Shown here: positions 17,245 to 25,712 of the stretch, piece by piece | Numbering within the stretch: position 1 is the stretch's first letter | Layout of the letters: each line of letters begins with the position of its first letter | Source of the DNA: Gemmatimonadota bacterium | Lineage (GTDB): Bacteria; Gemmatimonadota; Gemmatimonadetes; Longimicrobiales; Gaopeijiaceae | Direction: 5' to 3' | NCBI GenBank assembly: GCA_030430625.1 | Contig: JAUIKL010000004.1 | Coordinates: 1 to 60,000 of the forward strand | DNA: 60,000 nucleotides | Made by a program: the position numbers and the translations under genes | Notes under the pieces: model-generated | Told to the model about the DNA's origin: nothing | The model's input: the letters and a program-made list of their open reading frames with translations, nothing else | Databases searched by the model: none

Positions 17245-18261
17245 ATGACCCGCTCACGACTCGCGTGGACCGCCGCGCTCACCCTCGCGCTCGTACCCGC
17301 TGCGGTCTCCGCGCAGGCCACCAGTGAACTCGCCACCTTCACGCAGGTGATCTCGGGCACGGAGGTCGGGATTGTGTGGTCCCGACCGTCACTCCGGGGC
17401 CGAGAGGTGATCTTCGGTCGACAGATTCCGTGGGGCGAGGTATGGACGCCGGGCGCCAACGCCGCCACGACGATCAGCTTCTCGAAGGATGTCGTCCTCT
17501 CGGGCACCCCGGTCCCGGCGGGCCGCTACAGCGTCTGGCTACGCGTTCTCGAAGACGAGCCGTGGAGGTTGGCGCTGCACGCGGATACGACGTTGTGGCA
17601 CAGTGCACACCCACCGATCGAGGACGCGGTCGTGCATCTGGGCATCGAGCGGGCCCGGACCGAGGACGTGCAGGAATCGCTCGAATGGGATCTCGATCGG
17701 ATCCGGATCGACGGCGCGGATCTGGTCATGCACTGGGGCCGAGACCGGGTATCGCTCCCTCTCGAGGTCGACCCGGGGATCGCGTTGGCGACGCCTGCAG
17801 AAGAGGCCAGGGCCGTGCTCGGGGACTGGCTCTTCGACGACAGCCCGAGCATGCCGACGCGAGAACAGATCGATCGCTTCACCGGCGGGGACAGCCACAA
17901 CCCGACCGCTCGGTACTTCGAGGTGATGTTCGGAGGGGAGCGTCCGCGATCGATCCACATCGAGCGTGACGAGGACACAGGGATCGTGCACTTCGTCGAT
18001 CGTTTGACCGAGGATGCGGAAGCCGCCTTCTACTCGGGCGAAGGCGAGCAGCCGGTCGTCATCTACGGCCAGGCACTCCTACCGCGGGGAGGCGGCGCGT
18101 ACGCGATGGCGGGGACCTTCGGCCGCGAGGTGTCGGCCGTGAACCCCCGTGCGGCGCCGATCATCGAATTCGAGTTCGACGACGAGGGGCGGGCGATCGC
18201 GTTCACGATCCGGAGCCCGAACGACGACATCCAGGGCACCGGAGCGCGGCCCGGGCGCTGA
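17245..18261 (+). CDS. Exported DUF2911 protein
   Basis: This is a 338-residue protein with a Sec signal peptide (ALTLALVPAAVSAQA). A DUF2911 domain follows at about residues 35-170: IVWSRPSLRGREVIFG, PWGEVWTPGANAATTISFSKDV, LPAGRYSVW-like text and a WHSAHPP element. DUF2911 proteins are widespread in Bacteroidota and Gemmatimonadota and have no known activity. The C-terminal ~150 residues form a second beta-rich domain of unknown type. The stop codon lies inside a terminator stem shared with the convergent M15 peptidase gene. Confidence 0.75.
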   Translation: MTRSRLAWTAALTLALVPAAVSAQATSELATFTQVISGTEVGIVWSRPSLRGREVIFGRQIPWGEVWTPGANAATTISFSKDVVLSGTPVPAGRYSVWLRVLEDEPWRLALHADTTLWHSAHPPIEDAVVHLGIERARTEDVQESLEWDLDRIRIDGADLVMHWGRDRVSLPLEVDPGIALATPAEEARAVLGDWLFDDSPSMPTREQIDRFTGGDSHNPTARYFEVMFGGERPRSIHIERDEDTGIVHFVDRLTEDAEAAFYSGEGEQPVVIYGQALLPRGGGAYAMAGTFGREVSAVNPRAAPIIEFEFDDEGRAIAFTIRSPNDDIQGTGARPGR

Positions 18262-18273
18262 CCCGGTCAGCGC
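18255..18273. terminator. Hairpin between convergent DUF2911 and M15 genes
   Basis: GCGCTGAC / GTCAGCGC forms an 8-bp perfect stem around CCG and includes the DUF2911 stop codon. It sits in the 34-bp gap between convergent genes, so it may serve both. Confidence 0.6.
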
Positions 18274-18295
18274 GGGGAGACATCCGAGCGGCGGA

Positions 18296-19273
18296 TCAGA
18301 AGTCCGCGAGCTCGCTCCGGAACGGGGCCACACGAGCGGCGTCGGCCGCGAGGATCCTGTTGTACTCCAGGATCTCCGGGCGGAACTCGAAGTGCAGGTT
18401 GTCGAAGTGCGCCCACTTTCCGCCCCACAGGAAGCCGTGACGCTCGAAGGTCTCGATCACGGGATCCGGCGGGCTCCAACGCTGATCGAGCGGCGTGCGA
18501 TGCCATCCGGTCCGGTTCCAGGCCCGGGTCCACCGCCAGTAGACTTGCCGGCCCTCGTACGAGTCGGGTACGAAGTCGACGGCGAGCCCCCACGAGTGCT
18601 GGCTGCGCGTGCGGGTCCCCGCGATGCCGCGGTCGATGAACGAGTAGGTGATGTCGATCTCGTCGATCCAGTCGGCCACCTCGGCGTCGCGTGCGGCAAG
18701 CGAGAGGAGGTCGGCTTCGACACCGACGAGTGCGTCGGCTACGACATCGTTCACGAACATGCGGCGGTCGATGAAGGTGGTCGAACGGGACCCCCTCCGG
18801 ATCTGAGCCTCGGTGCGGCCCCAAAGCGCTTCCTGCAGATCCGTGCAGAAGCGTACGGGGTCGGTGGACACGGGGATCGGTTCGTCCGGCATCTCGAGCG
18901 GGTAGCGATAGAAGATCGAATCGCACCGGTCGCGCCGATCGAGTCGGTGCGCCGCCAACATCCGGCCGTCGAGGAAGTGGATCTCCTGACCGGCCACCGT
19001 GAAGACGAGGTCGTCGTCCCGGAACGACACGGAGTCGATGTGGGCGTCGTACGCTCGTAGGAAGGCTCGGACCCGCACATCGGATCGGAGTGACGCCTCG
19101 AGTGGGCTCATGTCGGGCGATACGCGCTCGGCCACAAGTGGCTCGGGGGCAGAGACTTCCGCCACCAGCACGTCCGTGGTCGAGTCCGCCTGCGAGACGG
19201 CACCGAGGCCAGCACCCCCGAAGAATCCACAGGCCACGAGGCCTGGAATCCAAAGGGTTCGGGTCGGTCTCAT
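18296..19273 (-). CDS. M15-family D,D-peptidase-like protein
   Basis: This is a 325-residue exported protein with a hydrophobic N-terminus (PGLVACGFFGGAGLGA), possibly a lipoprotein. The C-terminal half carries the M15 zinc site: SQHSWGLAVDF (His226, Asp233) and HFEF (His294), with the WGGKWAHFDNLHFEF block typical of M15C/VanY-like carboxypeptidases. These enzymes trim peptidoglycan stem peptides in the periplasm. The N-terminal ~200 residues are extra to the usual catalytic domain and hold several Cys. It faces a hairpin at its 3' end and is followed by no other gene on its strand. Confidence 0.75.
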   Translation of the reverse strand: MRPTRTLWIPGLVACGFFGGAGLGAVSQADSTTDVLVAEVSAPEPLVAERVSPDMSPLEASLRSDVRVRAFLRAYDAHIDSVSFRDDDLVFTVAGQEIHFLDGRMLAAHRLDRRDRCDSIFYRYPLEMPDEPIPVSTDPVRFCTDLQEALWGRTEAQIRRGSRSTTFIDRRMFVNDVVADALVGVEADLLSLAARDAEVADWIDEIDITYSFIDRGIAGTRTRSQHSWGLAVDFVPDSYEGRQVYWRWTRAWNRTGWHRTPLDQRWSPPDPVIETFERHGFLWGGKWAHFDNLHFEFRPEILEYNRILAADAARVAPFRSELADF

Positions 19274-19447
19274 GGCGGGTCTGCCTGGCTGAGGGAAGCG
19301 AGATCGCGGTTCCGACGGCGTACGGAGCCGGGGAACATGAGGTGCGACCGTCCACTACGCACCCTCCGTGCCGGTTCGTCGACACGGCACTGCGCCCGGA
19401 TCGTCAGGTGATTCGGGCTATTTCGACCGATCAGACCCCTGACGGCT

Positions 19448-19482
19448 CGGCACCGAGTTCTGCCGGTCGGAACTCGGTGCCG
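19448..19482. terminator. 13-bp perfect terminator hairpin
   Basis: CGGCACCGAGTTC / GAACTCGGTGCCG pair perfectly around a 9-nt loop. CCTTTTCG follows on the plus strand, and the matching A-run precedes it on the minus strand. It lies just after the stop of the small membrane protein gene at 19505-19969 (-). Confidence 0.75.
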
Positions 19483-19504
19483 CCTTTTCGAGGTCCCTGG
19501 CGGG

Positions 19505-19969
19505 TTAGGCGGACCCCGGGAGCGGTTGTCCCATCGGAGGCCCGGATTGCGCCCGAGCGGCTTCCGGCGGGGCGGGGCTCTCTTCGCCCGCGGAGGCCCG
19601 GATGTCACCGATCAGCCCAATCAGGCGTTCCTCGATCTCGTCCATCATCTCGCTCGCCTCTTCCTGGGCGCGAACACCCTGCTGGACGTCGACCGCGATC
19701 CGATTGAGCCGACGGATCTCACCGAGCACGTCGTCCACACACTCACGGAGTCGCCAGAAACGACGAGGGTAGCGGTGTGGCTGGACGTACTTCAGCGCGT
19801 GTTCGATCACGCTGAGCCGGACGCTGGAAAGGAGCATCGGCAGGACTGCAAGGAGCCCGAGGCCGAGTCGAATGTGCGGTGTGTGCACGAAGTAGAGGGC
19901 CGCCGCCAGCGCTGTGTACGACACCACCAGCACGACGGCCAGGATCTGGAACTGCTGTTTCTCTTGCAT
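19505..19969 (-). CDS. Two-helix membrane protein with cytoplasmic coiled tail
   Basis: This is a 154-residue protein. Two transmembrane segments lie close together (FQILAVVLVVSYTALAAALYFV and LGLGLLAVLPMLLSSV). A basic stretch (YVQPHRYPRRFWRLREC) follows, then a helical region (VDDVLGEIRRLNRIAVDVQQG...EEASEMMDEIEERL). The tail is Pro/Ala-rich. No family was recognised. ATG 19969 with GGAGA upstream is chosen over the longer open frame. It follows the DUF1684 gene on the same strand with a gap of about 145 bp. Confidence 0.6.
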   Translation of the reverse strand: MQEKQQFQILAVVLVVSYTALAAALYFVHTPHIRLGLGLLAVLPMLLSSVRLSVIEHALKYVQPHRYPRRFWRLRECVDDVLGEIRRLNRIAVDVQQGVRAQEEASEMMDEIEERLIGLIGDIRASAGEESPAPPEAARAQSGPPMGQPLPGSA

Positions 19970-20113
19970 GGGATCGTCTCCCCCCAAGGAAGTTGTCCTC
20001 CAGTGTCGGCTGGAGTCCCATACTTCAAAACTGTGCGGCGTCCGAGACGGGGAACAAGGATGATGTTTTCTCCACCCGACCCCTCCGGTGGCACGGACCC
20101 GGCGGGCGGTCAA

Positions 20114-21094
20114 CTACGGCCCGACCCGGCCCGCGCGTCTGTCCACCGACTTGGCAGGACGCTTCTCCCCGGCCTCGATCCGGATGGGAAGATGGTTCTC
20201 TTCGGGCGGTACACCGCAGACGGACCAGGGAGTGAAGACACACGGGGCGTTGTAGGCCCGGTTGAAGTCGATCGTCGTCCAGGCACCGCTGTCCGGCTTC
20301 TCGACCCTGAGGTATCGGCCCCCCTGGTATGTCTCGTCGACCGCCGTCGAGTCCCAGATCATCACCTGCATCGACGTACCCGTCGGGCGGCCCGTCGCCA
20401 CGAGTCGGAACTCCTGGTCGTCCTTTCGAAACACCACTTCGCCGAGCGACAACAGTTCGATCGTCCCACCCGTGACGTCCGGGATACGAATCGGTCTGGG
20501 TTCGCGGAAGGCGTCGAACCTCGCGGGTACGTTCCAGGACGGGTCGAGCGGATAGTAGTCGGGAAGCCGGAAGGTCGACCGTGCCGGGTGGTCTTCGTCC
20601 CAGGCGCGCAGCCAGAGACGACTCGTACCGGGTTCGGAGTGGACACGGAGTCCGAGGGAGCCCAGGGAGAGTCGTGTCGGCGTGGGCTCGCGATCGTGTC
20701 GCAACCGCGTCCTCTGCGTCACCACATCACCCTCGTGGAGGGACAACGGGGAGTCCGACGAGGGAACGACGTAGACCGCGTCGTCGGATCGGTACAGCGT
20801 GCCCGCCAGCGCGGGGGCGTCCTTACCGGGTAGGGTGATCGGCAGCGACGGATCGGACCCGAAGCTCGTTGCGCCCATCGGAAGCTCCCAGAGGCCGATC
20901 CAGAGCACGGGGCCGCCAGGAGGGGCGACGGCGCGAGCCTCGCGTAGCGTGCGCCAGGCCTCGTGCTCGGATCCGAAGCGTTCGACGGGCACATCGGCTG
21001 TGTGTTCGGGCCACGGCTGGTCGCAGGCCGTCGAGAAGACGAGGGGAAGCAGGATCGCGAATCGCCGAGGACGTATCGGGAGATGGAATGACAT
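20114..21094 (-). CDS. DUF1684 family lipoprotein
   Basis: This is a 326-residue predicted lipoprotein (FSTAC lipobox). It has the DUF1684 signature: YQGGRYLRVEKP, DFNRAYNAPCVFTPWSVC, GVPPEENHLPIRIEAGEK. The family is common in Bacteroidota, Actinomycetota and Gemmatimonadota, with no known activity; the conserved Cys pair and acidic residues suggest a small-molecule site. The frame also opens at GTG 21118. No clear ribosome site lies before ATG 21094, and a strong terminator T-run ends 24 nt upstream, leaving almost no room for a separate promoter. Expression may therefore depend on read-through from metB. Confidence 0.75.
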   Translation of the reverse strand: MSFHLPIRPRRFAILLPLVFSTACDQPWPEHTADVPVERFGSEHEAWRTLREARAVAPPGGPVLWIGLWELPMGATSFGSDPSLPITLPGKDAPALAGTLYRSDDAVYVVPSSDSPLSLHEGDVVTQRTRLRHDREPTPTRLSLGSLGLRVHSEPGTSRLWLRAWDEDHPARSTFRLPDYYPLDPSWNVPARFDAFREPRPIRIPDVTGGTIELLSLGEVVFRKDDQEFRLVATGRPTGTSMQVMIWDSTAVDETYQGGRYLRVEKPDSGAWTTIDFNRAYNAPCVFTPWSVCGVPPEENHLPIRIEAGEKRPAKSVDRRAGRVGP

Positions 21095-21118
21095 GGTCGT
21101 GTGGTGGCGTAGGGGCAC

Positions 21119-21148
21119 AAAAAAACCCGCCTGGCGGAGCCAAGCGGG
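21119..21148 (-). terminator. Strong intrinsic terminator after metB
   Basis: On the minus strand, CCCGCTTGGC / GCCAGGCGGG forms a 10-bp stem with one G-T pair around TCC, then seven Ts. It ends the metB transcript 31 nt after the small cysteine-rich ORF, and directly precedes the DUF1684 start region. Confidence 0.88.
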
Positions 21149-21178
21149 CGATGAAGCGAACGGACTACGACGAACGCG

Positions 21179-21286
21179 TTACGTCAGCGCACAGGGCTCC
21201 CGGAGGGTGATGGGACAACAACACGCCGCGGCGCCGATCTTGGCGGCGTCGTGGGACTGTTCCGGGGAGAGCCGATGGTGCGTCAT
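21179..21286 (-). CDS. 35-residue cysteine-rich ORF coupled to metB
   Basis: The ATG overlaps the metB stop as ATGA (21283-21286). The frame runs 35 codons to TAA 21181-21179, before the intrinsic terminator, so it would be co-transcribed with metB. The peptide is MTHHRLSPEQSHDAAKIGAA followed by a C-terminal part with three consecutive Cys and a fourth Cys four residues from the end. Third codon positions are mostly G or C, as in neighbouring genes, except that all four Cys codons are TGT. It could be a metal- or thiol-binding small protein, or a leader peptide whose Cys codons time the terminator downstream. No family is recognised, and translation is not proved. Confidence 0.5.
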   Translation of the reverse strand: MTHHRLSPEQSHDAAKIGAAACCCPITLREPCALT

Positions 21287-22554
21287 GCGAAAGGAATAGC
21301 CTGGCCGGCGGTTCGGTTCAAGACCGTGGCGTCCAGCGCCCGGTTCACGTCACCGGCCAGCGCGTCGGGAGATTCGATCCCGACCGAGAGCCGCACGAGG
21401 TCGTCACGGATCCCGGCCTCGGTTCGCGCGTGCTCGGGCATCGACGCGTGGGTCATCGACCACGGGTGGCACGCGAGGCTCTCGACTCCGCCCAGCGATT
21501 CGGCGAGTGAGAAGGACCCGAGCCCGTCAAAAAAACGCCGGGTGGCCGCCAGCCCTCCGCGGAGCTCGAAGCTGACGATACTCCCCGCTCCGCTCTGTTG
21601 CTCGGCAGCCAGGGCGAAACCGCCGTGGCTCTCCAGACCCGGGTAGTGCACGACCCGAACGGCTTCGTGCTTGCACAGGGCGTCCACGACCGCAGCCGTG
21701 TTGCGGGCGTGGGCCTCGACCCGGGCGTGCAGGGTTCGCAGACCGCGCAGGGTCTGGTAGCAGTCGAACGGGCTCTGGGTGACTCCGAGGCAGTTGCCCC
21801 ACCAGGATGCTTCCGCTCCCGCCTCGGCGTCCGCCGCGACCACGGCTCCTCCGACGACATCGCTGTGTCCGTTGATGAACTTGGTCGTCGAGTGCACGAC
21901 GAGGTCGGCACCCAGTTCGATCGGGCGCTGGAGTGCGGGGGAAAGGAAGGTGTTGTCCACGACCGATACCGCTCCGACGGCGGCCGCGCGCTGGCACAGG
22001 TCGTGGATCGGATAGATGCGGAGGAGCGGATTGCTCGGTGTCTCGATCCACACCATGCCGACGTCGGGGGTGAACGCTTCAGCGACGTCGGCCGGTTCGA
22101 GGAAGTCGACGAACCGGACGGAGAACTGTCCTCGTCCGGCGAGCGCCTGGAGCAACCGATACGTGCCTCCGTAGCAGTCTTTGGGAGCGAGAACGACGCT
22201 CCCCGGTCGACAGAGGTGGAGCGCAACGAGGACCGCCGCCATGCCGGACGCCGTCGCGACGGCCGATTGCCCACCCTCCAACTCAGCGAGCGCGCCTTCG
22301 AGTGTGGCCCGCGTCGGGTTCCCGGAGCGCGCGTAGTCGTAGACCGGCGGGACACCGAGCGCCTGGAATTCGTAGTTCGAGCTCAGGTAGAGAGGAGGCA
22401 TGACCGATCCGAAGGCCGTGTCTTCGGCCACGCCTGCACGAACCGCAGCGGTCACCGGGTCTCGGGGTCGACGGGCCGGCGCGAGAGTCGCGGAGCCGGA
22501 CGCTCGAGGCTCGACACGATTCGGGGTGCCTTCGACTACGTCGCTGCCTGCCAT
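21283..22554 (-). CDS. metB: Cystathionine gamma-synthase
   Basis: This is a 423-residue Cys/Met PLP enzyme. It has YARSGNPTRATLE (74-86), ATASGMAAVL (100-109), ETPSNPLLRIYPI (171-183), Asp200 in VVDNTF, the Schiff-base Lys225 in STTKFINGHSDVVGG, and the late SLAESLGGVESLACHPWSMTH block. It condenses an O-acylhomoserine with cysteine to cystathionine. A gamma-lyase role is possible from sequence, but the SAM riboswitch upstream argues for synthesis. The frame is open to ATG 22617 inside the aptamer; ATG 22554 with AGGAG 5 nt upstream is the likely start. A small ORF overlaps its stop. Confidence 0.9.
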   Translation of the reverse strand: MAGSDVVEGTPNRVEPRASGSATLAPARRPRDPVTAAVRAGVAEDTAFGSVMPPLYLSSNYEFQALGVPPVYDYARSGNPTRATLEGALAELEGGQSAVATASGMAAVLVALHLCRPGSVVLAPKDCYGGTYRLLQALAGRGQFSVRFVDFLEPADVAEAFTPDVGMVWIETPSNPLLRIYPIHDLCQRAAAVGAVSVVDNTFLSPALQRPIELGADLVVHSTTKFINGHSDVVGGAVVAADAEAGAEASWWGNCLGVTQSPFDCYQTLRGLRTLHARVEAHARNTAAVVDALCKHEAVRVVHYPGLESHGGFALAAEQQSGAGSIVSFELRGGLAATRRFFDGLGSFSLAESLGGVESLACHPWSMTHASMPEHARTEAGIRDDLVRLSVGIESPDALAGDVNRALDATVLNRTAGQAIPFA

Positions 22555-22612
22555 CTTCGCTCCTGGAGTGAGTCGGTGCCCCTCCTGAAGCGCTGCGCGA
22601 GCAAGACGCCCT

Positions 22613-22727
22613 CTCATCTCTCAGGTCATCGACCTGCAGGAGTTGGCACCGTGATCCCCGCTCCTGTAGAGCGGATATCTGGTTGCCCCGGCGTCTAAGG
22701 GCCTGTCCCTCAGCCGGTCTTGATGAG
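22613..22727 (-). promoter_or_regulatory. SAM-I (S-box) riboswitch upstream of metB
   Basis: The minus-strand RNA carries CTCATCAAGA, GGCTGAGGGA, GGCCC, GCCGGGGCAACC, GGTGCCAACTCC, GCAGGTCGATGACCTG and AGAGATGAG, the canonical SAM-I blocks in order. P1 pairs CTCATC (22727-22722) with GATGAG (22618-22613). The 58 nt between the aptamer and the metB ATG contain no T-run, so control is probably at translation. It closely resembles the metX leader. Confidence 0.95.
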
Positions 22728-22733
22728 GCCGGG

Positions 22734-22762
22734 AAGGTCGAAGAAGGGTGGGGAGGCGTCAA
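22734..22762 (-). promoter_or_regulatory. Probable promoter of metB
   Basis: TTGACG (22762-22757) lies 17 nt before GACCTT (22739-22734) on the minus strand, a few bases upstream of the aptamer. The -10 is poor, but the layout matches the metX promoter, including the C-rich spacer. Confidence 0.45.
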
Positions 22763-22850
22763 GACACGGGCTGCCTGAGGGGAGGGAGCGCGCCGCTCGG
22801 GTGAAGTGATGTACTTTCCAGCTTCCCCCCGACTCTGGAGTACTCCCGAC

Positions 22851-25712
22851 ATGAAGCGCCTGGCTGCACTGCTTCTTCTTTCGGTCTCGGCATGCGGGCC
22901 GCTCGACCTACCCCTCGATCCCGATCTCGCCGACACCCAGGCGCCGACGGCCGTCCTCGAGCTCCTGGACGCCTCCGGTGCCGTGGACACGGATGGCCGC
23001 GTCGATGTAGGAGAAGCGTTTGCCCTCAGTGGCGCACGGTCGACGGACATCGGTGGGGTGGTCGATCGGTACGAGTGGCTCGTGCCGGGGCTGTCACCCA
23101 TACGCACCGATGGGCCGACGCTGGCGGTGACAGAGATCGACGGCGTGGACTTCGGGACGGGTGTGTACACGTTCGGGCTCCGTGTGTCGGACGACAGCGG
23201 GAACCAGTCCGCACTCGCCGAGACGACCGTCACGGTCGGTGATCCCGATCCGCCCTCGGCCGTGCTGGACGTTCTCGACGGGGTCGGTGCCCTGAAGCCC
23301 GATGGCCGCATCGAGGCCGGGGACTCGTTCTCCCTCGGCGGTGCGCGGTCGACGGATGTCGGTGGGAGCGTCGTCCGGTACGATTGGCGCCTCCCCGGGG
23401 CCGTCACCGTGACGACGGACGCGCCGACTTTGGCCGTGACCGAGATCGTGGACGAGGGCTTCGGACTCGGAGAGCACACCTTCGGGCTGCGGGTGTCCGA
23501 TGACAGTGGCAACCAGTCGACGCTGGTCGAGACCACGGTCACGATCCAGGACACACGGAGGCCGACGGCGGTCCTTCGAATCCTGGATGCCCTCGGCGAA
23601 GTCGACGCCGACGGTCGCATCGAGGTCGGGCAGCCGTTCTCCCTCGGGGGTGAGGGCTCGCTGGACTCCGGTGGCCCGATCGCGCAGTACGAGTGGCGGC
23701 TGCCGGGCGGACTGACCGTGTCCACCGATGCGCCCACGCTCGCGGTGACCGAGATCTCGGACGAGGGCTTTGGTCTCGGGGTGCACACGTTCGGACTCGT
23801 TGTCGTGGACGCGGCCGGCAACGAGTCGGTGGTCGTCGAGACGACGGTGACCATCGTCGACACGCAGGCGCCGACTGCGGTTCTGCAACTTCGGGATGCT
23901 GCTGGTCAGCTCGTCGACGACGGGACGATCGAGGGTGGGTCAGCCTTCATCCTGGACGGTTCGAGGTCGACCGACGCCGGGGGACGGATCACGAGCTACG
24001 AATGGATCTATCCCGATGGAAAGACCGAGACGACCGATGTCCCGTCCCTCCTCGTGACGGCGGTCGTGAGTGGAGGGCTGGATCTCGGCGACTACACCTT
24101 CGGGCTCCGGGTGGTCGACGAGAGCGGAAACGAATCGGCGGTCGCCCAGACGACAGTCACGCTCGTCGACACGCGGGCTCCTACGGCGGTCCTCGACGTG
24201 CTGGATGGATCGGGCGCGATCGTTGGCGATCGGAGGATTGGCTTCGGGGACGCGTTCTCCGTGGACGGTTCGAGGTCGAGTGACATCGGGGGGCAAGTCG
24301 TCGAATACCGGTGGGTTCTCTCCGACGGACGGTCGGTGACGACCGATGACCCCCGACTGGCGGTCACGGACTTCATGCGCTTCGCTCTCGGACCACACAC
24401 CTTCGCGCTGACCGTGGTCGACAGCAGCGGCAACGAGTCCGCGGTCGTCGAGACGACCGTCGTCGTCGTGGACACGCAGGCGCCGACCGCAGTCCTCGAA
24501 GTGCTCGACGCCACGGGTGCCGTGGATGCGGATCAGCGGTTCGGCCCAGGCGACGTGTTCTCGTTGAGCGGCTCGAGGTCCACCGATGGCGAAGGGTCGA
24601 TTGCGCAGTATCGGTGGGTTCTCCCCGACGGGCAGGCTGTGACGACGGACTCACCGACGCTCGCCGTGACGGAACTCACCGACGCCGGGTTCGCTGTCGG
24701 TGAGCACACGTTCGGGCTCCGGGTGGTCGACGAGAGCGGAAACGAATCTTCGTTGGCCGAGGTCGTTGTCACGATCGTCGACACTCAGGCGCCGACCGCC
24801 GTTCTCGACGTGTTGGATGCATTGGGGGATATCGACGCCGACGGACGCGTCGAAATCGGTGAAGACTTCTCCCTGTCCGGCGCTCGGTCCGTGGACACGG
24901 GAGGGCAGCTTGTGCGGTACGACTGGATCCTCCCGTCTGGCCTCACCGTGATCACGGATACGCCGACGCTGGAGGTGACCCTGATCAGCGACTCCGGCTT
25001 CGGTGTCGGCACCCATACGTTCGGTCTACGTGTCACCGATGGGAGCGGAAACGTCTCGCAGCTCGTTCAGACAACGGTGACGGTGGTCGACACGCAGTCC
25101 CCGACGGCCGTACTCGAGGTTGTGAATGCCGCCGGAGACGTCGACGCAGAGCGTTCGTTCCGACTGGGTGAGACCTTCTCCCTGAGAGGGTCGAGGTCGG
25201 TGGATGTCGGAGGACAGATCACCCGTTATCGCTGGATTCTGCCCAGCGGGCAGTCGGTCGTGACCGAAACACCGACACTCGCGGTCACCGATCTTTTCGG
25301 CGGTAGCCTCGAGGTCGGCGTCTCTACCTTCGGACTCCAGGTGACTGACGACAGCGGGAACGAGTCGACGCTCGCCCAGGTCACGGTCACGCTCCTCGAA
25401 CCCGATACCACAGCACCGACCGCAGTGCTGAGCGCGGTCTATCCCGATGGCAGGCCCGTGATCGGGACGGTCCCGCAGGGAGCCGCCTTCCTGCTCACGG
25501 GCGTCCGGTCGACCGATGTGGGTGGGGTCATCGTCCGGTACGACTGGCGCCTTCCGAACGGACAGGTCGTGACGACGGACCGGCCTTCTCTCGCGGTGAC
25601 GGAGGTCGCAGGCCCCTTCGGTTCAGGTGAACAGACGTTCGGCCTGACCGTGACCGACGACAGCGGAAACGAGTCGGTCCTGGCTCAGGTGAGGGTGATC
25701 ATCGGGCTCTGA
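22851..25712 (+). CDS. Lipoprotein with nine tandem Ig/PKD-like repeats
   Basis: This is a 953-residue predicted lipoprotein (lipobox SVSAC, then GPLDLPLD). The rest is nine tandem repeats of roughly 95-100 residues. Each begins near DTQAPTAVLxVLD, continues with DGRIxxGxxFSLxGxRSxDxGG and YxWxLPxG, then TLAVTE, HTFGLRVxDxSGNxS and TVTVVDT. The fold is PKD/Ig-like. Repeats are so alike that DNA-level recombination could change their number. No enzymatic domain is attached, so an adhesin or surface spacer role is likely, as an inference. The frame opens at 22806, but the signal peptide fixes the start at ATG 22851. It diverges from metB. Confidence 0.82.
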   Translation: MKRLAALLLLSVSACGPLDLPLDPDLADTQAPTAVLELLDASGAVDTDGRVDVGEAFALSGARSTDIGGVVDRYEWLVPGLSPIRTDGPTLAVTEIDGVDFGTGVYTFGLRVSDDSGNQSALAETTVTVGDPDPPSAVLDVLDGVGALKPDGRIEAGDSFSLGGARSTDVGGSVVRYDWRLPGAVTVTTDAPTLAVTEIVDEGFGLGEHTFGLRVSDDSGNQSTLVETTVTIQDTRRPTAVLRILDALGEVDADGRIEVGQPFSLGGEGSLDSGGPIAQYEWRLPGGLTVSTDAPTLAVTEISDEGFGLGVHTFGLVVVDAAGNESVVVETTVTIVDTQAPTAVLQLRDAAGQLVDDGTIEGGSAFILDGSRSTDAGGRITSYEWIYPDGKTETTDVPSLLVTAVVSGGLDLGDYTFGLRVVDESGNESAVAQTTVTLVDTRAPTAVLDVLDGSGAIVGDRRIGFGDAFSVDGSRSSDIGGQVVEYRWVLSDGRSVTTDDPRLAVTDFMRFALGPHTFALTVVDSSGNESAVVETTVVVVDTQAPTAVLEVLDATGAVDADQRFGPGDVFSLSGSRSTDGEGSIAQYRWVLPDGQAVTTDSPTLAVTELTDAGFAVGEHTFGLRVVDESGNESSLAEVVVTIVDTQAPTAVLDVLDALGDIDADGRVEIGEDFSLSGARSVDTGGQLVRYDWILPSGLTVITDTPTLEVTLISDSGFGVGTHTFGLRVTDGSGNVSQLVQTTVTVVDTQSPTAVLEVVNAAGDVDAERSFRLGETFSLRGSRSVDVGGQITRYRWILPSGQSVVTETPTLAVTDLFGGSLEVGVSTFGLQVTDDSGNESTLAQVTVTLLEPDTTAPTAVLSAVYPDGRPVIGTVPQGAAFLLTGVRSTDVGGVIVRYDWRLPNGQVVTTDRPSLAVTEVAGPFGSGEQTFGLTVTDDSGNESVLAQVRVIIGL

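Follow-up and report, generated by a model that had tools for sequence, protein, structure and literature searches.

Genes and RNA Elements of the metB–DUF1684 Locus

On the minus strand of the window, the whole 60,000-nt stretch of DNA that was analyzed, a SAM-I riboswitch, metB, a 35-codon Cys-rich open reading frame (ORF), an intrinsic terminator, and a DUF1684 gene follow one another in the 5′ to 3′ direction. The riboswitch aptamer (S box; 22611..22729, minus strand), upstream of metB, matched Rfam RF00162 with 81.7 bits (E 1.2e-18), and an Rfam search of positions 18000-25000 returned RF00162 and otherwise only a sub-threshold sX5 match, which was rejected for a score under its gathering score. 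No T run lies ahead of the metB start after the riboswitch (22729-22611), and control there is possibly exerted on translation. Among the metB loci of relatives, RF00162 was found in 16 of the 20 scanned (20 of 41 loci given) and a SAM_alpha match in one.

The metB-like cystathionine gamma-synthase, a PLP enzyme encoded at 21283..22554 (minus strand), matched Pfam PF01053 (E 1.1e-124) and NCBIfam TIGR02080 (512.4 bits, cut-off 504.55), both matches being obtained on a longer 444-aa frame. Its start is probably the ATG at 22554, which has AGGAG upstream, because the listed start at 22617 falls within the riboswitch match. Elsewhere in the window, a second PLP enzyme of Cys/Met metabolism, 37% identical to metB, is encoded at 9102-7870 (minus strand) and adjoins a PanB-like ORF.

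The DUF1684 gene (20114..21094, minus strand; Pfam PF07920, E 2.5e-36) encodes a protein that appears lipoprotein-like from a lipobox read at its N terminus and that carries a Cx7C motif (C-VFTPWSV-C). Of the 22 places found with DUF1684, 15 sequences were examined, that of the window among them, and every one had the motif. In the text available from PMC9426492, a haloarchaeal DUF1684 protein is grouped with a thiol relay on its Cx7C motif, the role being a proposed one, and a gene of this family in the downstream position would add some sense to a link with cysteine. A clear Shine-Dalgarno sequence was looked for ahead of both the Cys-rich ORF and DUF1684 and was found for neither.

A Small Cys-Rich ORF Overlaps the metB Stop Codon

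The Cys-rich ORF (21179..21286, minus strand; MTHHRLSPEQSHDAAKIGAAACCCPITLREPCALT) is a candidate leader peptide. As described in the initial annotation of this DNA, its ATG (21286-21284) overlaps the metB TGA (21285-21283) in the form ATGA, and it contains three adjacent TGT codons (TGTTGTTGT; 21215..21223, minus strand), the proposed sensor, and a fourth TGT near its end (21191..21193, minus strand). Three Cys, not four, fall within nine codons. In 19 of the 38 window genes, an ORF 20 aa or longer begins within 8 nt of the stop, a small non-gene ORF was recognized by reading at the stop of 8 of the 38, the Cys-rich ORF among them, and the fraction of shuffled 102-nt stretches that stayed open was 0.71.

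When 160-nt stretches were generated with a first-order Markov model of spacer composition, a CCC run in any of the three forward frames appeared in 0.29% of them; an ORF in a fixed frame that had CCC and no fewer than four Cys appeared in 0.05%. The pattern TGYTGYTGY was observed three times in the window against 0.78 expected and 115 times across the genome; of these 115 matches, 91 distinct places were examined and 87 sit in gene-like frames, the pattern elsewhere in the genome being nearly always out of frame within genes. Cys is encoded less often by TGT than by TGC (199 vs 381 among 91,970 training codons), and the use of TGT at four of four Cys positions has p ~0.014; TGT had been called unexpected here in the initial annotation.

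The codon use of the ORF provides moderate evidence for coding. Without the Cys codons, GC was 17/30 at second and 28/30 at third positions (GC2 and GC3; Fisher p 0.001), and counting them changed the values to 21/34 and 28/34 (Fisher p 0.052). Cys codons were also omitted from the codon test in work on mycobacterial Cys-rich small ORFs (sORFs), according to the sections available from PMC9094748. The codon score was matched by 5 of 5604 shuffles when TGT was left out and by 334 of 4171 when it was kept. In the unmasked intergenic DNA of a 329-kb genome sample that includes the window, 1 of 57 other small intergenic ORFs scores as well, and that one is apparently a genuine mini-protein of zinc-ribbon-like type; with a cruder gene mask that left missed genes in the background, 121 of 1065 intergenic windows score as well as the ORF. 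Searches of Pfam and NCBIfam gave no match to the ORF peptide. The tiny ORF MLDLHCKLVCERCGYKRDCSDP (L114 9403-9632, minus strand) has four Cys and strong coding-like codons and looks like a zinc-ribbon-like mini-protein.

Terminator and Predicted Ribosome-Dependent Pairing

The intrinsic terminator (21119..21149, minus strand) is composed of an 11-pair stem (21149-21125) of about −20.5 to −21 kcal/mol, a TCC loop, and a run of seven T (21125-21119). The strong terminator previously noted after the ORF was thus recovered, with the distance from the ORF stop to the stem measured as 29 nt in place of the 31 nt first given, and its T run ends 24 nt ahead of the DUF1684 ATG at 21094, the spacing already reported. 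A simple terminator scan of 4.5 kb found three sites, two of which are the same stem, with 1.5 expected in shuffles. The placement of an intrinsic terminator between a candidate leader ORF and the following gene is that of a trp-type attenuator.

Computed folds gave alternative pairings across this region. Segment 1 (GGCTCTCCCCGG; 21262..21273, minus strand) can pair with segment 2 (GGGAGCC; 21195..21201, minus strand) when no ribosome is present, the copy of GGCTC at 21273 being able to do so; segment 2 is complementary to segment 3 (GGCTCC; 21141-21136, minus strand), the upper part of the terminator 5′ arm, and segment 4 is the terminator 3′ arm. Given the spacing of the Cys run, segment 2, and the stop, a ribosome covering 26 nt, the footprint adopted in the part of PMC13236596 available, leaves segment 2 just free when placed on the Cys run.

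Equilibrium folding gave a terminator probability of ~1 at every ribosome position and was dropped as a test of attenuation because it also misses the E. coli trpL attenuator. Co-transcriptional folding was computed instead, on the RNA 3′ of the ribosome only and with the terminator 3′ arm not yet made. In the E. coli trpL control (L178), pairing of the 5′ arm was 0.83 with the ribosome at the Trp codons and 0.07 with it at the stop. At the target, raw arm pairing barely shifted with ribosome position (Cys codons, 0.70; stop, 0.57; no ribosome, 0.50), which is due in part to folding of the arm on itself. When only pairs of the arm and loop with upstream RNA were counted, pairing fell from 0.76 at the Cys stall to 0.36 at the stop. 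Spacer shuffles reached 0.76 in 23 of 1000 cases (2 of 100 in a second run), 13 of 1000 also matched the energy, and 162 of 1000 showed an equal or larger stall-minus-stop difference; the corresponding counts for trpL in the same shuffle test were 389, 10, and 74 of 1000. The terminator form beats the alternative by 10.8 kcal/mol at the target and by 4.7 in trpL, which points to leaky rather than strong control. The fold of the metB 3′ tail had a z of −0.52. Folding alone cannot carry the case at one locus.

Search for Orthologs of the Locus

The initial annotation had proposed looking for the ORF, and for its place after metB, in related genomes. No convincing ortholog of the peptide was detected in 97 relatives (best non-self E 0.024) or in the genomes of the order (154), phylum (395), and class (394), three overlapping samples in each of which the own genome is counted (best non-self E 1.7e-4). 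The latter match, in G362, was judged to be chance because it sits in the third minus-strand frame and not in the AraC-like ORF that covers that place. L147 (MSSGTECCCPSTSA), where the surrounding frame extends over at least 967 aa, was likewise put down to chance. A plasmid collection searched with the peptide gave no match, and a repeat element was rejected, the spacer being single-copy in the genome with the next match at E 0.16. A contig scan with metB yielded one distant Oscillospiraceae locus. The closest metB found was 61% identical, and the absence of an ortholog is weak evidence for that reason.

Conservation of the Cys run was not borne out either. The 300 nt that follow the metB stop were free of CCC in all forward frames at the 40 non-own metB loci (95 nt were left at L090), all of them distant with metB at most 61% identical, and no CCC run was found in the 320 nt upstream of DUF1684 homologs at 10 loci. 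Nor are the two genes neighbors in G007, G020, G025, G030, and G034, the five other genomes with both DUF1684 and a metB ortholog at 50% identity or more: they are found either on separate contigs or at a distance of 7.5 kb. In relatives such as L029, L036, L038, L088, and L091, the metB stop is overlapped by a kinase-like ORF that has ..VLKFGSS.. close to its beginning; the only match of the L036 kinase-like ORF in the window's genome is elsewhere, in an 849-aa frame on contig C188 (E 2.5e-11).

Cys/Met-Run Leaders Precede an ATP-Grasp Operon across the Order

Of the 4 of 91 TGYTGYTGY places outside gene-like frames, one is the target, two overlap each other in a 44-aa ORF, and one is in a 12-aa ORF. 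The 44-aa ORF, which contains a CCCC run, is a second poly-Cys leader in the window's genome (contig C189; L199 4026-4160, G000:C189) and is found 105 nt upstream of a gene for a RimK-like ATP-grasp protein, followed by one for a luciferase-like monooxygenase. The nearest model to the monooxygenase is SfnG, with a score under that model's cut-off. A luciferase-like monooxygenase is also encoded by the next gene after ATP-grasp in 4 of 4 relatives scanned (L231-L234).

ATP-grasp matches with E ≤1e-20 were detected in 56 of the 154 genomes of the order, the own genome included. At an identity of 50% or more, 34 non-own matches remained; the analysis covered 29 of those loci (L201-L229), which were picked by the ATP-grasp protein and not by cysteine content. 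Four or more Cys per nine codons marked a short upstream ORF at 17 of the 29 loci, compared with 1 of 29 in antisense; at a threshold of three Cys per nine codons, the counts were 26 of 29 and 6 of 29. Upstream of 62 control genes, a set from which L030 and L087 (short flanks) and the window's own two loci had been removed, such ORFs numbered 0 and 4 at the two thresholds. Met codons crowd the Cys run of the ATP-grasp leaders (51 of 336 residues near it and 28 of 766 elsewhere; p 9e-11), and the non-Cys codons of 26 pooled leaders are coding-like, with GC3 of 0.79 vs GC2 of 0.65 (p 9e-13; 9 of 26 singly below 0.05). L200, L215, L219, and L220 were left out of these Met and pooled codon counts.

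Hairpins followed by a T run were found near the leader at 25 of the 29 loci, that of L219 having only −2.5 kcal/mol and L201, L202, L216, and L227 having none. The terminator scan gave no T run for the leaders of the own genome (L200) and of G030, so control there may be of another kind. The folding test was applied to 24 loci, leaving out L200, L201, and L202 (no T run) as well as L215, L219, and L220 (leader missed by the first rule); 23 of them have a hairpin, L216 now included and L227 having none, and the stem starts 22-47 nt past the ORF stop in these 23. Pairing at the stall exceeded pairing at the stop in 19 of the 23 leaders (medians 0.67 vs 0.24), the effect being absent in L203, L205, L206, and L228, the last with a wrongly picked Cys window. 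Shuffle tests on single leaders are weak, 5 or fewer of 100 shuffles being as good in 1 of 23. Taken across the set, the fit of leader segments to the terminator arm of the same locus was better than to arms reassigned by permutation, with 107 of 20,000 permutations as good.

A CTCCC/GGGAG hairpin follows the Cys run of the leaders, with changes on both sides in three of its four predicted pairs. Alignments A1 and A2 contain 20 of the 29 non-own loci and omit L201, L202, L215, L219, L220, and L227, together with the near-duplicates L205, L223, and L226. The consensus fold recovered the four-pair hairpin and not the terminator, which falls in gapped columns. Covariance model R1, built from the 20 loci, finds the left-out L205, L215, L219, L223, and L226, three of which are near-duplicates of modeled loci; it finds L227 at E 0.94 and misses the leaders of L200 (own), L201, and L202. 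We consider it very probable that the ATP-grasp leaders truly are transcription attenuators with Cys/Met leader peptides, and this order-wide family is a firmer and more interesting result than the target locus.

Comparison with the ATP-Grasp Leaders and with Known Systems

The layout of the target fits that of the ATP-grasp leaders: a Cys run in a short ORF, a segment complementary to the terminator arm, the stop-to-stem distance, the terminator, and then the gene. Its 29 nt from stop to stem is within the 22-47 nt of 23 ATP-grasp leaders. Unlike the target, the ATP-grasp leaders have Met among the Cys codons, the CTCCC/GGGAG hairpin, and a sequence profile of their own, and neither metB nor DUF1684 adjoins them. 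Their covariance model did not return the target among 26 window matches up to E 10, and applied to the target stretch alone it scored 3.1 bits, which does not place the target in the ATP-grasp leader family. Across all the DNA analyzed, a scan for short ORFs that have a Cys run close to their end and a terminator behind them returned 14 ATP-grasp leaders and the target only. Three control codon pairs in the same scan gave 2, 4, and 4 matches, and the co-occurrence of run and terminator at the target is on these numbers within chance.

Leader attenuators with Cys codons are of a known kind. As described in the available text of PMC8632094, uORFC-8-2, upstream of cysS in Rhodobacterales, contains Cys codons and has an intrinsic terminator, like the target, and is predicted to be a ribosome-mediated transcription attenuator, the kind proposed for the target; compared by that description, it differs in having two tandem Cys codons, cysS as its target, and an alphaproteobacterial host. 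Mycobacterial polycysteine leaderless sORFs (Canestrari et al. 2020, as described in parts of PMC9031893, PMC9094748, and PMC13236596) share with the target contiguous Cys codons in a short ORF and attenuate the downstream gene. They are leaderless and are said to act by translation attenuation, whereas the target ORF begins at the metB stop and has a terminator after it; the overlap of its ATG with the metB stop argues against a leaderless start. The Cys-run leader peptides of Actinobacteria (acnes; cbs in B. longum) have their runs near the stop and, in the portion of PMC1262725 available, have Cys runs like that of the target and, unlike it, no conserved terminator hairpins. The E. coli trp attenuator has the 1:2, 2:3, and 3:4 pairing logic that is proposed for the target; it differs in its Trp codons, its position in a 5′ leader, and a smaller energy gap between terminator and antiterminator, the target being intercistronic. 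The term gemmatimon is absent from the available text of the attenuator survey PMC2965389, and a literature search joining gemmatimonad, leader peptide, and attenuation returned no paper. Within the literature searched, there is no precedent for leaders that combine Cys and Met codons with a terminator, for an ATP-grasp/monooxygenase operon as what they control, or for an intercistronic position.

Discussion

We infer that 21286-21119 may be a ribosome-mediated, trp-type cysteine transcription attenuator between metB and DUF1684, a reading for and against which the evidence is about evenly balanced. Ribosomes ending metB would re-start at the overlapping ATG. When Cys-tRNA is short, the ribosome would stall on the three TGT codons and free segment 2 to pair with the GGCTCC of the terminator 5′ arm, allowing read-through into DUF1684. 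When cysteine is plentiful, the ribosome would be at the stop codon, segment 2 would be unavailable, and the terminator would form; in untranslated RNA, segments 1 and 2 would pair and the terminator would form too. The metB gene itself would remain under the SAM riboswitch. Stall-controlled read-through had been suggested in the initial annotation, and in favor of it are the geometry, the coding-like codons, the Cys-run leaders of the order, and the Cx7C motif of the DUF1684 product; against it are the lack of an ortholog in the genomes searched, the lack of a match to the family model, and the separation of metB from DUF1684 in other genomes.

The main rival is an ordinary metB 3′ end, in which the terminator would end the SAM-riboswitch-controlled transcript, the ORF would be a chance occurrence, and DUF1684 would have a promoter of its own that went unrecognized. 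A terminator after metB is to be expected anyway, small ORFs overlapping a stop are common and most shuffled stretches of this length stay open, and the unexceptional tail fold and the two to four coincidences with control codon pairs agree with such an account, as do the missing ortholog and the five genomes in which the two genes are apart. Against it are the coding-like non-Cys codons, the computed stall-dependent pairing, and the use of poly-Cys leaders with terminators elsewhere in the order; we give it a substantial chance that falls short of even. The codon use, the ATGA overlap, and the four Cys in 35 residues would also suit a lineage-specific small Cys-rich protein, translation-coupled to metB and acting as a thiol- or metal-binding peptide rather than a sensor, but this is improbable given that the peptide has no Pfam or NCBIfam match and no convincing homolog and that its Cys run is placed where the sensor codons of a leader would be. 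Most improbable of all is that the ORF is a stub of the kinase-like gene, of the aspartate kinase type by reading, that follows metB in some relatives. The ..VLKFGSS.. ORF does begin at the metB stop in the five relatives named above, but comparison of the spacer and peptide with six kinase-like ORF starts gave best E values of 0.055 for DNA and 0.34 for protein.

Beyond the attenuator reading of the single locus, the order may use a regulon of Cys/Met-codon attenuators for sulfur limitation. One order-wide set would control the ATP-grasp/SfnG-like operon, and the target would be an intercistronic member with two inputs, SAM for metB and cysteine for DUF1684. We advance this regulon only tentatively, as a possibility on the doubtful side of even.

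In the parts of the literature available to us, Cys-codon leaders are either mycobacterial and actinobacterial, without clear terminators, or belong to the Rhodobacterales cysS motif. A terminator-bearing Cys-plus-Met leader kept across another order would show that ribosome-sensed sulfur starvation arose independently or is more widespread. Through such leaders, sulfur limitation would also be linked to an uncharacterized ATP-grasp/monooxygenase operon and possibly to DUF1684.
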